DNA of 22,134 nucleotides, from positions 1 through 22,134 of IMG/VR virus record IMGVR_UViG_3300044972_000175; one strand, given 5' to 3'. The translations under genes and the position numbers were made by a program. The notes under the pieces were generated by a model. It made no database searches. It was given only the letters and a program-made list of their open reading frames with translations, and was not told the origin of the DNA. Within the stretch, counting starts at the first letter, position 1. Every line of letters starts with the position of its first letter. Positions 197 to 20,330 of this stretch are shown piece after piece. This DNA comes from a virus.

Positions 197-2247
197 TGAC
201 ACGATACGGAGCCGAGCCAGCGGACTGGCAGCACCTCGACCGCCTCGGCATGGGCCCCGATCTCCTGCCGGTGGTCTCGAGGCCTCTTACTGCAGGCGCG
301 AAGATCAGCCCCAAGTCCGCGATGAAGGTGCCGGGCAAGACGCCCAGCCTTTACAACGGCGGCCAGATGGTGGTGGGCATCCCGCAGTGGACGGCGCACC
401 AGGCAACGCCAAAGGAGTTGCTGCGCTGGTCCTCAGAGCCCGACTACGGCATCTGCATTCAGACCCGCGAGACCCGCTGCCTCGACATCGACGTGAGCGC
501 GCCGGCCGTCGTCGCAGCGATCCTCCGCGCCGTCGCTGACGCCCTCGGCATCACCTTTCCGAAACGCTGGCGCCAGAACAGCGCCAAGTGCCTCCTGGCC
601 TTCAAGCTGGTCGGCATCTTCCCGAAGCGCGTGATGCGCGTCGAGGGCGGGATGATCGAGTTCCTCGGCAACGGCCAGCAGTTCATAGCCATCGGCACCC
701 ACCCTTCCGGGGCCCGATACGAATGGGAAGGAGGCCTGCCCGCCGAGATCCCCGAGCTCACGCCCGAGCAGTTCGAGACCCTGTGGTCGTCCCTCGAGAT
801 CCAGTTCGCGATCGACACGCCCACGATCTCCTCGGCCACCGAGCGCAAGCGCGGTGACGACATCGACATCGCCGACCCCGTGGCCGACTGGCTGCAGGAG
901 CAGGGCCTCGTCCTGGGCGAGGATCGCCGCGGCGGCCTGCTGATCGAGTGTCCGTGGACTGCCGAGCACAGTGCCGGTGAGCCGGGCGACAGCTCGACCG
1001 TCTGGTTCCCGGCAGGCACCAACGGTCACCCGACCGGCCACTTCAAGTGTCTGCACGCCCATTGCGAGGGCCGCAATCGGTCTGACTTCCTGGCCGCGGT
1101 TGGTTACGACGCCGGCGTTGCAGATGAGTTCGAGGATCTCGGCCCCGATCCGGATCGGGAAAACTCTGGCGGCGCCAATGACGCCATCAGTGAAAATGCA
1201 CCGAGCGGTAAGTCCGGGTTCACCCTGATCCAGGCGGCCGAGTTCGCGGCGCAACCCTCCGGCCGGTGGCTGGTCAAGGGGTTGATCCCGATGGAGGAGC
1301 TGGTCATCGTCTATGGCGCATCGGGCGCCGGCAAGTCCTTCGTGATGATAGACCTCGCGATGGCGGTGGCCCGTGGCGTCCCGTGGCGCGGGTGCAAGGT
1401 GCGCCAGGGCAAGGTTATCTACATTGCCGCCGAGGGCGGTGGTGGCGTCCGCAAGCGGCTCACGGCCTATGCCCAACACCATGCGGTTTCGTTGGGCAGC
1501 GTCCCGTTCTACGTCATCCACGCCAGTCCGAACCTGCTCGACAAGGCCCAGGTCAAGGCCCTGATCGACGCCATCAACGGGCTCGAGGATGTCGCGATGA
1601 TCATCTGCGATACCTTCGCCCAGATGACCGCCGGCGCGAATGAGAACGCCGCCGAGGACATGGGCCTGGCCATTGCCCACGTCAGGGCCGTGGGGCGCAG
1701 GTCCGGTGCCACTACAGTGCTCGTCCACCACGCCGGCAAAGACGCGGCCAAGGGCGCGCGCGGCTGGTCCGGTCTCAAGGCCGCCGCCGATGCTGAGGTT
1801 GAGGTCACGCGCGACGGCGACGATCGAGCCATCAACACGACGAAACAGAAAGATGCCGACGATGGCGCCAGCTGGGGCTTCAAGCTCGAGCGCGTGGCGA
1901 TCGGCATGGATGACGACGGCGACATCGTCGAGAGCTGCGTGATCGTGGAGAGCGATGTCGAGGTCGAGGCCGGTGTCAATGGCGGGCGGCGCAAGGCGAA
2001 GCCCTCCAGGCGCCCTGCGCCGTGGGAGCAGGTGCTGCTCGACACCTTCCAGGAACTGGCGATCGGTGGCGACGTGCTGAAGACCGAATTAATCCTCCGC
2101 GCCGCGAACAAACGGTCGGAGGAAGAGGCGGGCACGCTGCGCGACAGGAAGAAGAATGCCGGGAAGGTGCTCGCGAGGATGTCGAGGGGCGATGGCGCGG
2201 CGTTCATCAGCAGCAAGGAGGACGACTATGTATCGCTCGTCCAGTAG
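196..2247 (+). CDS. Primase-polymerase / RepA-type helicase fusion (phage replication protein)
   Basis: A 683-residue protein. The N-terminal part looks like a bifunctional primase/polymerase (archaeo-eukaryotic primase) domain: a LDIDV strand with acidic pair D97 and D99, followed by GMIEFLGNGQQFIAIG and a HPSGARYEW segment typical of that fold. A zinc-binding-like cluster follows: C252, H258, C285, H287, H289 and C290 (CPWTAEH ... FKCLHAHCEGR). The C-terminal half is a RecA-fold AAA_25/RepA-like ATPase: Walker A GASGAGKS at 374-381, an IICDTF Walker B-like strand, and VLVHHAGKDAAKGARGWSGL, the usual sensor/arginine region. The last ~80 residues look like a winged-helix tail. Expected role: unwinding phage DNA and laying down primers at the origin, probably the array directly downstream. 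Its start overlaps the upstream stop by one base. The domain calls are confident; the combined activity is inferred. Confidence 0.88.
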   Translation: MTRYGAEPADWQHLDRLGMGPDLLPVVSRPLTAGAKISPKSAMKVPGKTPSLYNGGQMVVGIPQWTAHQATPKELLRWSSEPDYGICIQTRETRCLDIDVSAPAVVAAILRAVADALGITFPKRWRQNSAKCLLAFKLVGIFPKRVMRVEGGMIEFLGNGQQFIAIGTHPSGARYEWEGGLPAEIPELTPEQFETLWSSLEIQFAIDTPTISSATERKRGDDIDIADPVADWLQEQGLVLGEDRRGGLLIECPWTAEHSAGEPGDSSTVWFPAGTNGHPTGHFKCLHAHCEGRNRSDFLAAVGYDAGVADEFEDLGPDPDRENSGGANDAISENAPSGKSGFTLIQAAEFAAQPSGRWLVKGLIPMEELVIVYGASGAGKSFVMIDLAMAVARGVPWRGCKVRQGKVIYIAAEGGGGVRKRLTAYAQHHAVSLGSVPFYVIHASPNLLDKAQVKALIDAINGLEDVAMIICDTFAQMTAGANENAAEDMGLAIAHVRAVGRRSGATTVLVHHAGKDAAKGARGWSGLKAAADAEVEVTRDGDDRAINTTKQKDADDGASWGFKLERVAIGMDDDGDIVESCVIVESDVEVEAGVNGGRRKAKPSRRPAPWEQVLLDTFQELAIGGDVLKTELILRAANKRSEEEAGTLRDRKKNAGKVLARMSRGDGAAFISSKEDDYVSLVQ

Positions 2248-2270
2248 TGGGGTTATTGGGGTTACATGGT

Positions 2271-2284
2271 GGGGTTATAACCCC
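2271..2284. repeat. 14-bp perfect palindrome, copy 1
   Basis: GGGGTTATAACCCC reads identically on both strands. An identical copy starts exactly 56 bp downstream. It is formed by two GGGGTT units facing each other, so it could bind a protein dimer. Confidence 0.9.
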
Positions 2285-2326
2285 ACTTGCTTTTCGCAAC
2301 CCCACTCAAAAAGGGGTGGGGTTATT

Positions 2327-2340
2327 GGGGTTATAACCCC
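2327..2340. repeat. 14-bp perfect palindrome, copy 2
   Basis: Second identical GGGGTTATAACCCC. It is preceded by another GGGGTT nine bases upstream (2318) and followed by AACCCC units at 2348 and 2357, the densest part of the array. Confidence 0.9.
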
Positions 2341-2381
2341 ACGACGTAACCCCACTAACCCCTGGGGTTGTTGGGGTTACT

Positions 2382-2410
2382 GGGGTTGTGTGTCTAGAAG
2401 ACACAACCCC
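2382..2410. repeat. Inverted repeat with 10-bp arms
   Basis: Arms GGGGTTGTGT (2382-2391) and ACACAACCCC (2401-2410) are perfect reverse complements around a 9-base spacer that contains CTAG. It can form a stem-loop or a spaced dimer site. No T-tract follows, so I do not call it a terminator. Confidence 0.85.
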
Positions 2411-2427
2411 ATAACCCCACCCCAGTG

Positions 2428-2452
2428 CCATTTTTTCACTTTTACCGGAAAT
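2428..2452. other. AT-rich tract inside the repeat array (possible unwinding element)
   Basis: About 25 bases containing TTTTTTCACTTTTA interrupt very GC-rich sequence and sit between two blocks of GGGGTT/AACCCC units. AT-rich tracts beside iterons are where replication origins usually open. The origin role is inferred. Confidence 0.4.
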
Positions 2453-2484
2453 GGGGTTGTAACCCCACCTGCTGGGGTTACAGC

Positions 2485-3441: not shown

Positions 3442-3753
3442 GTGCGCCAGAGTCGAGCAGACAGCGCATCGTGGCAGCACCTCTACAACTCAACACGCTG
3501 GCGTAAGCTGCGCTTGATCCACCTCGGTGCTGACCCCCTTTGCCGCATGTGTGCAGACGAGGGACGCATCAAGGCCGCAACCGTCTGCGACCACATCCAG
3601 CCCCACAAGGGCGACGTTGCCCTGTTCTATGACCCGGCCAACCTGTCGTCCCTCTGCAAGCCGTGCCACGACAGGCACAAGCAGAGCGAAGAACGAACAG
3701 GCAAGGCAAAGCCGATCACCGGGTTGGACGGGTGGCCTGTAGGAAGCCCGTAG
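3442..3753 (+). CDS. HNH endonuclease (packaging-associated)
   Basis: A 103-residue protein. GTG 3442 is chosen because AGGAG (3432-3436) lies five bases upstream. The N-terminus reads WQHLYNSTRWRKLR, the usual lead-in of phage HNH proteins next to terminases. The ββα-metal core follows: zinc ligands C34-x2-C37 and C72-x2-C75, DHI at 50-52 with H51, N67 and H76 (NLSSLCKPCHDRHK). HNH proteins encoded beside TerS/TerL are known in HK97-type phages to act with terminase in cutting DNA at cos. The position here, just before the terminase genes with a cos-like motif between, supports that role. The protein is of normal family length and appears intact. Confidence 0.9.
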   Translation: MRQSRADSASWQHLYNSTRWRKLRLIHLGADPLCRMCADEGRIKAATVCDHIQPHKGDVALFYDPANLSSLCKPCHDRHKQSEERTGKAKPITGLDGWPVGSP

Positions 3754-15023: not shown

Positions 15024-17296
15024 TCCTCCTCCGTAACCCGCTGGCACCGCACACGCGGGAGGTTTACCCGTTGCCCGACGGCTCGCTGGTCATTGACTGG
15101 CTGCAAGAGCATTACCCCGATGGGTTCGGTATGCCCTGCCGGTTCTACCTTAACGCCACCGAGAAGCCGCTCGACGATCTGGACTATCCGCTCGCCGACG
15201 ATGATGTGGCGACGATTGCGGTCATGCCTGGCATTGATCCGGGTACAATTACGCTGAGTGCATTCCTGATCCAGCTTGCCATCGGCGCAATCCTTGCGGG
15301 TGCCTCTCTCGCCCTCACATATTTTTTCCGACCCAAGGAACCGTCCGGTTCCAAGGGCAAGCCGCTCACGATCTATGATGTGTCAGGCGGCCAGAACTCA
15401 GCGCGACTTGGCGAGGCCGTGCCTGTGGTCTACGGCTCAGTCCTGACCATTCCGGACTACATCGCGCAGCCGTACACGTGGTTTGATTGGTCACAGCAAA
15501 ACTTTCAGCAGCCTTACAACGGCATCCAATACCTCGACCTTCTGCTCTGCGTGGGCCAAGGCAACATTGACGTTCCGAACATCTATCTTGGCGACACTGG
15601 ATCAACCACACCAGATGCCGGGGTCGTGACATGGCGGGCCTTCAAGCCGTCCGAGCATCAAGGCACGATGGGCGTGATCGCCACGGCAATGGGCGGCGGC
15701 TTTTACGAAAACGTCGTGACCTCGCCAGAGGTTAGCAATCAGGAGTTCGTGGACGGTAACGACGTTGCTGGTTATTTTGCCACATGCAAATCCGGTAACA
15801 AGGGGCGCTACTTCCAGATCGACATAGTGTTTCCCGCCGGGCAGACCAACCCGTCTGACGGTGGCAACGTCAATGGGCGCGACACGCAGTTCCGAATCTT
15901 GTGGCAGGAACTCGATGACAACGACACCGCGGTTGGCGCAGTGGTGACGAAAGTTGTGACGGCCTCGACCAACAGCGCGAAAACGGTCACAGACGCCAAC
16001 GGCGGAACTACCGTCACAACATCGACAACAGAGAAGAACAAAACGCAGATCGGCTCCCCGATCCGCAGATCATACAAGATCGACACCGGGCGCAGCGCCC
16101 GCTGGGCGGTGAAGATTGAGCGCATCACCGCCGCGCCGAACGCGGTGAACGGGACCGACCGCTTCATCTGGACCTCGCTGAAACTGTATGCCGATTACCC
16201 GAGCGGCGCGGCATACGGCGATGTGACTTTGTTGGCCGTCCGCGTCAAGGCATCACAGGGACTTGGCAACGACGCCTCTGTCCGCATTCGTGCGCGGGCC
16301 AACCGCAGGCTCCAACCGCCAGGGGGCGGCACTGAGGTCGCCACCAGCAGCGGCGCTTATGCGTTTGCCGATGTCTACACCAACCAGACGTACGGGGCGA
16401 AGCGGCCAAGCAGCGAGCTTGACCTGACCGCCCTTGCCAACCTCCACACGAAATGGACCGGCTACCAGTTCAATTTCGTTTTCACCGACCGGACAACCGT
16501 GTGGGAAGCACTGCGGACAATCACCACCCCTTTCGCCGCCGAGCCGGTGCCGGTCGGCCCGGTCATGTCTATCGTGCAGGACGGCGTGAAGGCGGTACGT
16601 TCCGCGCTTTTCAGCAACGCCAACATTGTCTCGAACAGTCTGACGGTCGGCTACTCCTGGGACGAGGAGGGAGCCACGGACGGCGTCGAGATCGAATACA
16701 TTGACCCCATAGATTTCCGTCCGGTTTATGCCCTTTATCCCTCGACGGCGTTGCGACCAGAACAGTTCATGCTGCCCGGTGTGACCAGCGCCACACACGC
16801 GGCACAGTACGCGCTGCTGACTTGGCAGCGCCGCCAGGGTCAGCGAAAGCGCGTGACCTTTGATACCGAACTTGAGGGCATGCTCCTCCAGCTGGGCGAC
16901 CGGATCGGCGTATCGCACAACGTCCCGAAGTGGGGAGACAGCGGACTCATCGTTGCCGTCTCTGGCCTCACGCTGTCAGCCGACCACAACCTTGACTGGT
17001 CGGGCGGCACCAAGTCGATTGTGCTCCGCAAGCCAGACGGGTCTGTGACCGATCCGATCTCGGTGACGCGCGGTGTGTACGACTATCAGATCGTGCTGCC
17101 GTCCTCGTCCCCCACCACGATCAACGTGGACAACGACTACGAATACACCTCGTTTGCCTTTGGCTCATCCTCGACATTGGTTCGGGATTTCATTGTGACA
17201 TCGACGCAGCCGACCGGAGAAAACACTGTGACGGTTGAGGCTGTGAACTATGCGCCCGCGATCTTTACGGGCTGCATGAGCTATATGGTCAGCTGA
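15011..17296 (+). CDS. TipJ-type tail tip / host specificity protein
   Basis: GTG 15011 is preferred because GGAG (14999-15002) is eight bases upstream and VASLVLLRNPLAPHTREVYPLP is the usual family start; the product is 761 residues. Upstream in-frame codons only mirror the NlpC gene. Residues ~82-106 are strongly hydrophobic (FLIQLAIGAILAGASLALTYF), a membrane-like segment known in lambda J/I-type and TipJ proteins. Next comes GGQNSARLGEAVPVVYGSV (126-144), a TipJ hallmark. The long beta-rich remainder should form the tail hub and fibre base. It contacts the receptor or carries fibres that do. The TGA overlaps the next ATG (TGATG). It is about two-thirds the length of lambda gpJ, so receptor contact may be delegated to the downstream fibres. 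Confidence 0.85.
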   Translation: MASLVLLRNPLAPHTREVYPLPDGSLVIDWLQEHYPDGFGMPCRFYLNATEKPLDDLDYPLADDDVATIAVMPGIDPGTITLSAFLIQLAIGAILAGASLALTYFFRPKEPSGSKGKPLTIYDVSGGQNSARLGEAVPVVYGSVLTIPDYIAQPYTWFDWSQQNFQQPYNGIQYLDLLLCVGQGNIDVPNIYLGDTGSTTPDAGVVTWRAFKPSEHQGTMGVIATAMGGGFYENVVTSPEVSNQEFVDGNDVAGYFATCKSGNKGRYFQIDIVFPAGQTNPSDGGNVNGRDTQFRILWQELDDNDTAVGAVVTKVVTASTNSAKTVTDANGGTTVTTSTTEKNKTQIGSPIRRSYKIDTGRSARWAVKIERITAAPNAVNGTDRFIWTSLKLYADYPSGAAYGDVTLLAVRVKASQGLGNDASVRIRARANRRLQPPGGGTEVATSSGAYAFADVYTNQTYGAKRPSSELDLTALANLHTKWTGYQFNFVFTDRTTVWEALRTITTPFAAEPVPVGPVMSIVQDGVKAVRSALFSNANIVSNSLTVGYSWDEEGATDGVEIEYIDPIDFRPVYALYPSTALRPEQFMLPGVTSATHAAQYALLTWQRRQGQRKRVTFDTELEGMLLQLGDRIGVSHNVPKWGDSGLIVAVSGLTLSADHNLDWSGGTKSIVLRKPDGSVTDPISVTRGVYDYQIVLPSSSPTTINVDNDYEYTSFAFGSSSTLVRDFIVTSTQPTGENTVTVEAVNYAPAIFTGCMSYMVS

Positions 17297-18311: not shown

Positions 18312-20330
18312 ATGACTGACACCGCCGCACGCCAGCGGCAGCTCATCGGCTCGACTGCCGCATGGGCTGCAAACAATATTGTCCTCGGCAACGGTGAGAT
18401 TGGCGTCGAGGTTGTCTCCGGGTCAGACGTTCGCATCAAGATTGGCGACGGCACCTTGACCTTCTCTGCGTTGCCCTATGCCTCGGCCTCTAGCACGGCA
18501 ATCAATGCAGCCACTCAGGCCGCACTCGACGCAAAGGTTGCCTTGGCTGGCGGCACTATGACCGGCCTCCTAGTCCTGTCGGGTAATCCATCCGCCGCAC
18601 TTGGTGCCGCCACAAAACAATACGTTGACGCGATCAACACCAGCCTTTCGACATCAATATCTGGCAAGCTCTCGACCGCTGGCGGAACGCTCACCGGATC
18701 GCTGACGCTGGCCTCCGATCCATCGTCTGCGCTGCAAGCCGCCTCCAAGCAGTACGTTGACACAGCCGCCGCGCTGAAGGTGAACAAAGCGGGCGACACT
18801 ATGACCGGCGCACTGGTGCTGGCCGCTGACCCGTCAGCCGCTCTTGAGGCAGCCACGAAACAGTACGTCGATGGCGGCGGATATCAGACCACAGTGGGCG
18901 GCTCCGCTACCTATAGCGGCAAGGTGGTTAAATTAAACTCCGTCGGTATCATTGACGGCTCAATGCTTCCGGTTGCCGCAACCTACCTCGGAACCGTCAG
19001 TCTCACCGCCGCCTACGCTCTGTCTGGAACATTCTCGACCGGCAACTACTATGCCGTGTCAACGACAGGCACCGTTGACAGTTCGTGGAACAGCCGCCTC
19101 ACTGGCTCGCCTGCAACCTGTAGCGCCGGTCAGTCGATCATCTACAACGGCGCTACAAGCAAGTGGGACCTAGTCGGTGACACGACATCCGCCACTGCCA
19201 TCAACGGGAAGCTCGACAAGGCTGGCGGCACCATGACAGGGGCGCTGATCCTCGCCGCTGACCCGACTGTCGCCCTTGGCTCCGCGACAAAGCAATACGC
19301 TGACACCATGCTTCCGAAAGCCGGTGGCACAATGACGGGGCTTGTGACCTTGTCTGCCGACCCGAGTTCTGCGCTGCATGCCGCCACGAAGCAGTACGTT
19401 GACAGCGCAGGCACTGCGGTCACTTCTGGGTACATCGCAGCCGACACCGCGCTATCCAGCACGCTGACATCCTCTATTGCTGGCAAGCTGCCGCTGTCCG
19501 GTGGCACCATGACCGGCGCGATCACGCTTTCCGGCGCTCCGAGTTCTGCGCTACATGCGGCGTCAAAAGATTACGTTGACACATCTGTGTCTGGATTTGC
19601 ACTCAGGTCCAACAACCTGTCGGACCTGTCCAACGCCGCGACTGCTAGGTCCAACCTTGCCGCTGCTGGCACGGGCGTCACCAACACATTCAGTCAGGTC
19701 CAAACCTTTAACGGCGGCATCTCTCCGGGGGTGGTTATCAAGGGGCAGGGAGGCCTAGAGGGCGGCGAGCTTCATTTAGAAAAGCCAGCGTCTGGGTCAA
19801 CCCTTGCTGGGAATGTATTCATTGACTCTTATGCTGATAATATTCGTATCCTTGAGGGCGGCGGAACCTTTAGGGGTGCCTACCTCAACATAGCCAACTG
19901 CGCGTCTGGTGCAGGCACCGCCATACTGACAACCGCTGACCAGCAGACGGTGCTTCTCGGTACGCTGACCACGACAAGCGGGGCCACTGCACCTCTGACA
20001 GGTCAAAACCTCTCAACATACCGCCAACTCTATATCTCAGTTTCCAACGTGTCCGGCACGAACGGAAGCGCGCGATCGCTTACCCTCAATGGCATTGTTT
20101 GCAGTTCTTCCGCAAACACTGCGGCATCAACTTATTGGGGCTGGATGACGGTTGATCTTAATTCGGGGCAAGGCCTTCTTATGTCACAGAGCTACATATC
20201 ACCCTCTGGGCTGTTAGGCATTACGCAGGGCGTCACTGGACTCAATCGCGGCTCAACCTCAATCACGTTTGGCTGGGATGCAACCAACTTGTTCGATAGC
20301 GGAACGATCCTTGTCTACGGCTTGCGCTGA
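18312..20330 (+). CDS. Tail fibre with six GGTMTG-QYVD repeats
   Basis: A 672-residue fibre with a strong ribosome binding site (AAAGGAA 18298-18304). Residues ~1-60 (RQRQLIGSTAAWAANN, LGNGEIGVEVV, VRIKIGDGTLTFSALPY) match the N-terminal domain of major tropism determinant-like and other fibres that attach to the virion. Residues ~78-423 contain six copies of [KTL]-[AS]-G-x-T-[ML]-T-G-x(12)-A-[AT]-[KS]-[QD]-Y-[VA]-D. After a Ser/Ala-rich bridge, the last ~230 residues are a beta-rich C-terminal region (FNGGISPGVVIKGQGG ... WGWMTVDLN ... TSITFGWDATNLF) presumed to bind the receptor. It is probably a trimer. No reverse transcriptase or diversity-generating template is present in the window. Confidence 0.87.
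   Translation: MTDTAARQRQLIGSTAAWAANNIVLGNGEIGVEVVSGSDVRIKIGDGTLTFSALPYASASSTAINAATQAALDAKVALAGGTMTGLLVLSGNPSAALGAATKQYVDAINTSLSTSISGKLSTAGGTLTGSLTLASDPSSALQAASKQYVDTAAALKVNKAGDTMTGALVLAADPSAALEAATKQYVDGGGYQTTVGGSATYSGKVVKLNSVGIIDGSMLPVAATYLGTVSLTAAYALSGTFSTGNYYAVSTTGTVDSSWNSRLTGSPATCSAGQSIIYNGATSKWDLVGDTTSATAINGKLDKAGGTMTGALILAADPTVALGSATKQYADTMLPKAGGTMTGLVTLSADPSSALHAATKQYVDSAGTAVTSGYIAADTALSSTLTSSIAGKLPLSGGTMTGAITLSGAPSSALHAASKDYVDTSVSGFALRSNNLSDLSNAATARSNLAAAGTGVTNTFSQVQTFNGGISPGVVIKGQGGLEGGELHLEKPASGSTLAGNVFIDSYADNIRILEGGGTFRGAYLNIANCASGAGTAILTTADQQTVLLGTLTTTSGATAPLTGQNLSTYRQLYISVSNVSGTNGSARSLTLNGIVCSSSANTAASTYWGWMTVDLNSGQGLLMSQSYISPSGLLGITQGVTGLNRGSTSITFGWDATNLFDSGTILVYGLR
18543..19580 (+). 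repeat. Six dispersed 87-bp fibre repeats
   Basis: Repeat units start at 18543, 18675, 18786, 19218, 19317 and 19494, each about 29 codons, with a consensus KAGGTMTGALxLxADPSSAL then AATKQYVD. Spacers range from 4 to 115 residues. These units are common in phage fibres and a likely substrate for recombination that changes shaft length. Confidence 0.9.

Follow-up and report, generated by a model that had tools for sequence, protein, structure and literature searches.

The stretch of viral DNA analyzed here (the window) comprises 22,134 nucleotides. Near its start, a plus-strand gene (positions 196 to 2247) encodes a 683-residue primase-helicase, and the following gene on the same strand (2485 to 2766) encodes a 93-residue protein of unknown function. 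The window derives from a tailed phage or prophage: genes for terminase, portal, protease, capsid, and tail proteins lie downstream. Positions 2 to 193 cover the end of the preceding gene. Its phage matches carry the annotation DUF2312 domain protein, which we take to be the GapR family, and the DNA of this segment is similar in rhizobial phages. Farther downstream, positions 18312 to 20330 encode a tail-fibre-like protein with repeated KxGGTMTGAL...DPSxALxAATKQYVD units.

The primase-helicase combines an N-terminal Prim-Pol domain (PF09250; residues 44 to 187, positions 325 to 756, plus strand; E = 4.9e-9) with a RepA-type AAA_25 helicase domain (residues 350 to 517, positions 1243 to 1746, plus strand; E = 4.5e-42). 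In Foldseek searches, the best PDB matches of its AlphaFold model were to the RSF1010 RepA helicase (1nlf, 1olo, and 1g8y; E ~1e-10). The C-terminal ~80 residues (residues 604 to 683, positions 2005 to 2244, plus strand) were modeled as a winged helix both in the whole-protein model and separately. The AF2 model built from 33 diverse C-termini reached a pLDDT of 93 and a pTM of 0.83, with the topology H-H-H-E-E. Its PDB fold matches were mostly winged-helix proteins (linker histone, Z-beta, forkhead, and PhoP) and individually weak (E of 0.5 or worse, probability up to 0.84). Residues 648 to 662 (positions 2137 to 2181, plus strand) form the predicted recognition helix of this domain, the proposed reader of the array described below.

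An array of GGGGTT/AACCCC hexamers fills the entire gap between the two genes, beginning 1 base past the TAG stop (2245 to 2247) and ending 5 bp before the ATG at 2485. Eighteen hexamers occur within 231 bp (2249 to 2479), in the orientation order +++--++---+++--+-+. A dinucleotide model predicts ~0.1 for this interval, and a chance origin of the array was rejected on this count. For the whole 22 kb, the same model predicts 9.1 hexamers, with just five seen outside the array. All 17 TGGGGTTR octamers of the window fall inside it; together with one AGGGGTTA, they form the mixed-orientation blocks of the array (2248 to 2480). Within it lie two copies of a 14-bp palindromic iteron pair, GGGGTTATAACCCC (2271 to 2284 and 2327 to 2340), a near-palindromic pair, GGGGTTGTAACCCC (2453 to 2466), and a 10-bp-arm inverted repeat, GGGGTTGTGT/ACACAACCCC (2382 to 2391/2401 to 2410), surrounding a hairpin with a 7-bp stem, TGTGTCTAGAAGACACA (2389 to 2405). 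An AT-rich tract, a possible melting site, separates iteron blocks at about 2430 to 2451. The array, pairs, hairpin, and tract are given without strand. Our recount agrees with a preliminary description of this DNA regarding the 18 hexamers, the two identical palindromes, the inverted repeat, the AT-rich tract, and the adjoining primase-helicase gene. The strict 9-bp period that it reported is fair for many hexamers (5/17 intervals are exactly 9 bp) but not universal, as 4/17 are 8 bp.

We collected a first set of 133 distinct helicase loci from viral and bacterial contigs and scored an array wherever one 7-mer occurred at least five times, with copies on each strand, in the 600 bp that follow the helicase gene on its 3' side. 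Arrays were found in 53% (70/133) of the helicase 3' flanks, compared with 1% (1/112) of the helicase 5' flanks and 1% (4/357) of the 3' flanks of other open reading frames (ORFs). Between helicase and other ORF 3' flanks, the odds ratio was 98 (Fisher p = 4e-42); p values in this analysis are optimistic, as they assume independence, yet related sequences are not independent. A second set, gathered later by querying with the helicase from CRP-823, a Roseobacter phage, gave arrays in 26/35 helicase 3' flanks, 0/24 helicase 5' flanks, and 1/45 other ORF 3' flanks. Same-strand spacing of the copies peaks at 9 bp (range, 7 to 11), independent of the word. About half of the first-set relatives had no array at the threshold of at least five copies. 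No array was present at positions 3550 to 3614 of Caulobacter phage GB2A, a closely related isolate (L291; helicase domain, 49%) with almost no intergenic space past the helicase gene; thus, some members must use another site.

The repeated word itself changes with lineage (GGGAGTT, TCGGTGC, TCGGGTA, TGCAACG, TTTGTAG, and others), and the arrays are therefore not merely inherited copies. The closest relatives found (L126/L127, 63% identical) have no GGGGTT array; where the window has its array, they instead have GGGAGTT 15 times, distributed over both strands. The search of relatives that the preliminary description had proposed thus retrieved equivalent arrays, but not the GGGGTT word in the closest of them. 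Its rule that absence of the array from close relatives would refute an origin would misfire here, because an array of another word stands in place of the missing one. The arrays accompany Prim-Pol, PriCT-2, and TOPRIM primases alike, persisting as the primases are swapped. Of the copies of TTTGTAGT in the complete genome of CRP-823, all (10/10) lie within the array. Circular phage-plasmids also carry arrays, namely, Caenibius p1 (TGCGGAA, 12 copies), Methylobacterium currus (TGTTGCG, 8 copies), and M. radiotolerans pMRAD08 (GTCCGGT, 6 copies).

Comparison of the relatives suggests which part of the protein reads the word. Given ATPase and primase identity, word similarity correlated with C-terminal identity at a partial r of 0.54 for pairs with an ATPase (AAA) identity of at least 0.6 (255 pairs; permutation p = 0.001) and of 0.86 for an identity of at least 0.8 (25 pairs). 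The ATPase and primase partials were near zero at the former cutoff (primase, -0.09). Across all 66 arrays, the C-terminal partial was 0.17 (p = 0.002) and the primase partial 0.16 (p = 0.004). As a linkage control, the gene on the far side of the array, which is equally close, correlated at just 0.09 to 0.18 with the word; physical linkage was rejected as the sole cause of the tracking. The next gene (93 residues in the window) is, on this comparative evidence, not the reader, as its similarity among relatives does not parallel that of the word. The columns that best track the word are 643 and 648 to 654, where the predicted recognition helix begins.

Individual pairs illustrate the same relationship. 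L155 and L156 share 91% of the primase and 96% of the ATPase but 55% of the C-terminus, and their words are TCGGGTA and TCGGTGC. Corresponding values are 98%, 97%, and 69% for L162/L142 (CGGTGCA versus TGTTGCA) and 94%, 95%, and 52% for L240/L227 (TTGCAGT versus CCTTCAT), while L231/L211 share 98% of the ATPase and 36% of the C-terminus (CAAGGGT versus TGCAACG). In the converse case, L206/L208, the primase (54%) and ATPase (71%) have diverged, the C-terminus is 95% identical, and one word is held in common. L169, with an overall identity to the window of 48%, has the word TGGGGTC, closer to TGGGGTT; its C-terminus is 59% identical to that of the window, compared with 45% for L126. The ~80-residue C-terminal domain thus appears to recognize the array word.

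Many arrays also contain a hairpin with a CTWWAG-like apex, found in 28/133 helicase 3' flanks versus 1/357 controls in the first set and in 6/35 versus 0/45 in the second. It usually lies between inverted iterons, without a T-run, and its apex is mostly CTTTAG or CTATAG on the gene-sense strand. Examples include L126/L127, L143, L149, L170, L250, L266, and others (e.g., CACCCCCCTTTAGGGGGGTG), in addition to positions 2389 to 2405 of the window; the central TGTGTCTATAGACACA hairpin of L126/L127 is the counterpart of TGTGTCTAGAAGACACA. A TNNA loop is favorable in DNA hairpins. The CTWWAG hairpin is a possible site of single-strand initiation or extrusion.

Given its site beside a replicative helicase, its iteron layout, the confinement of the word in the window and in CRP-823, and the arrays of phage-plasmids, the GGGGTT array 3' of the helicase gene is most likely the replication origin of the phage. 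We consider it probable, with some assurance, that this is a self-specific iteron origin read by the C-terminal winged helix of the helicase, with sites that load the helicase and with reader and array changing as a cassette. The comparisons cover the array, its conserved position, word switching, C-terminal tracking, and the predicted winged helix; direct binding, origin function, loading geometry, and a role for the hairpin are what we infer. In the proposed mechanism, the array would be the phage's own origin, an iteron cluster whose TGGGGTTR sites would be bound in double-stranded DNA by the winged helix of the helicase-primase. With sites in both orientations, each strand would receive helicase assemblies close to the AT-rich tract and the hairpin. 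The RepA-type ring would then unwind the DNA, with priming by the N-terminal Prim-Pol. As a specificity cassette, the final ~80 codons would change together with the array next to them, and the primase, ATPase, and neighboring genes would be exchanged independently of it. The GC-skew change at the arrays was not in the expected direction and gives no support for an origin.

A cluster of operators, bound by a separate regulator that controls the downstream late genes, would account for an intergenic array of mixed orientation upstream of the next gene, and some phages do have dispersed operator-looking repeats (e.g., TTGGTTGC in Escherichia phage slur05). We regard this as unlikely, since the array lies at the 3' rather than the 5' end of the helicase gene, no sigma-70-like promoter was matched, no copies of the word occur outside the array in the window or CRP-823, and the word tracks the C-terminus of the helicase rather than the neighboring gene. 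Our initial hypothesis was that the Prim-Pol domain present in the window gene recognizes the repeats as template sites in single-stranded DNA, so that the primase, and not the helicase tail, reads them. The NrS-1 phage PrimPol-helicase initiates at such a short motif, TTTGGTTA, which some array words resemble (PMC8718748, PMC7102993). The NrS-1 motif differs in having two genomic copies, one per strand at mid-genome, that are read by the primase/HBD without an array. In an NrS-1-type system, the site should follow the PrimPol domain, and here the word does not follow the primase: the primase partial is -0.09 given the C-terminus among similar helicase cores, L162 and L142 differ in word despite their near-identical primase parts, and arrays also stand beside helicases with PriCT-2 or TOPRIM primases. 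This hypothesis was dropped and is now judged quite improbable.

A transcription terminator or folded RNA, with the repeats as by-products of its stems, would explain why folding of the strand is much more favorable than that of shuffled sequences (z = -10.5) and why two terminator-like sites were matched. Both of these sites, however, are inverted iteron pairs, from which strong stems are expected; 9-bp direct repeats serve no role in a terminator, the CTWWAG hairpins lack a T-run, no Rfam family was matched, and no tRNA was found. Such a reading has very little probability in our view. The preliminary description had termed the array telomere-like and suggested a combined iteron and G-quadruplex-forming origin. 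While the iteron origin is the reading best supported by the comparative evidence, the remainder did not hold. The four-G runs and the telomere-like hexamer would suit a structural element of this kind, but G-quadruplex prediction retrieved no four-tract motif on either strand (G3+ with N1-7 or N1-12), and relatives have GGGAGTT, TGCAACG, or TTTGTAG at the same place, with words devoid of G-runs among those replacing the G-rich one; relatives conserve the layout and not the G-runs. We consider a G-quadruplex or telomere-like element extremely improbable.

The iteron origin proposed here has likenesses to several known replication systems. Of the RepA/RepB'/RepC proteins of RSF1010 (IncQ), RepA is the closest solved structure to the window helicase. 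Iterons, helicase, and primase cooperate in RSF1010, which has hairpin initiation sites; it uses three proteins, whereas in the window the functions seem fused in one. The P4 alpha helicase belongs to SF3, and the P4 origin has a distant second element. As described in PMC4234260, P4 alpha is a single polypeptide with a primase, a helicase, and a winged helix that binds origin repeats. The window protein would share this plan, its winged helix being predicted (pLDDT, 93; weak fold matches), but the P4 primase is of the TOPRIM type (PMC4234260). pRN1 ORF904 and BIP-1-type phages combine a prim-pol, a helicase, and a C-terminal winged helix, with the origin directly 3' of the gene (PMC4234260); the pRN1 origin differs in being a ~100-nt stem-loop without iterons, and the helicase is of SF3. 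The SCCmec helicase Cch2 binds direct repeats located just downstream of the gene that encodes it (PMC7581432), although this helicase is of the D5 family and the iterons are just three, of 5 nt.

SaPIs and other PICIs also correspond in layout. According to PMC7581432 (Ubeda 2007 as cited there), the SaPI Rep helicase uses its C-terminal domain to bind iterons that directly follow its gene, and Gram-negative PICIs follow the same rep-ori plan (Fillol-Salom 2018, PMC6092414). As in the window (2248 to 2480) and its relatives (70/133 and 26/35), an initiator helicase gene is followed immediately 3' by an origin of short iterons. The role of the C-terminal domain in origin recognition may have a parallel here, where the word strongly tracks the C-terminus in the comparisons. 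The iteron sets of SaPIs/PICIs flank an AT-rich region, and the window has its tract at 2430 to 2451; across relatives, AT enrichment was weak, and the AT-richest 20-mer showed no preference for the largest inter-iteron gap (12 cases versus 11.7 expected), with AT content there above the locus mean. In contrast to SaPIs/PICIs, the helicase here is of the RepA type (AAA_25, RecA fold), primases are exchangeable, and words number in the dozens. The carriers also differ from these satellites, being tailed phages and phage-plasmids with a terminase of their own; the window has portal, protease, capsid, and tail genes.

The preliminary description knew of no standard description of this architecture. 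That statement was right only in part, since in SaPI/PICI replicons the iterons directly follow the gene for the Rep helicase (PMC7581432, PMC6092414). The open PMC literature searched contained no description of GGGGTT arrays beside a phage primase, of RepA-like helicase iterons, or of such a phage class. The mode of action would resemble that of PICIs/SaPIs and P4, with the helicase type, tailed-phage replicons, exchangeable primases, and many words as the apparently new elements. On balance, we favor the view that these loci represent a replicon class, widespread in tailed phages and phage-plasmids and apparently not described before, in which a RepA-type helicase is fused to exchangeable primases and has its own origin-reading winged helix, reader and array switch as a cassette, and dozens of distinct words lie on a 9-bp lattice, often with a CTWWAG-capped hairpin. 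The origins of most metagenomic phages are unknown, and a mixed-strand 7-mer with 9-bp spacing 3' of a RepA-type helicase offers a sequence rule for predicting them. Initiator-origin coevolution can be tested directly in naturally occurring pairs whose helicases are nearly identical yet differ in C-terminus and word, as can replicon compatibility and a winged-helix recognition code; such pairs could also supply sets of orthogonal replicons.

A search of viral contigs for the pattern GGGGTTN3GGGGTTN3GGGGTT retrieved many coding repeats but also arrays next to replication genes of unrelated kinds. Similarly built GGGGTT/AACCCC arrays lie directly 3' of other replication genes at L081:3604-3740, L070:3297-3584, L023:4140-4260, L048:2065-2340, and L011:10686-10900. 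The gene types at these arrays are an 877-residue Prim-Pol, a PriCT_2-DUF927-Cch HTH protein, a Toprim-DUF3987 protein, a polymerase/primase PHROG, and one unknown 879-residue protein. These sequences suggest that the layout extends beyond AAA_25 helicases. In phage slur05 (L298), the iteron GCGGGACA is clustered a second time at positions 16986 to 17241. TTGGTTGC occurs in 22 scattered copies across the slur05 genome and in about 8 to 10 copies in a 900-bp noncoding stretch of Edwardsiella phage eiAU (L293; 4194 to 4930) and is possibly a second, operator-like repeat.
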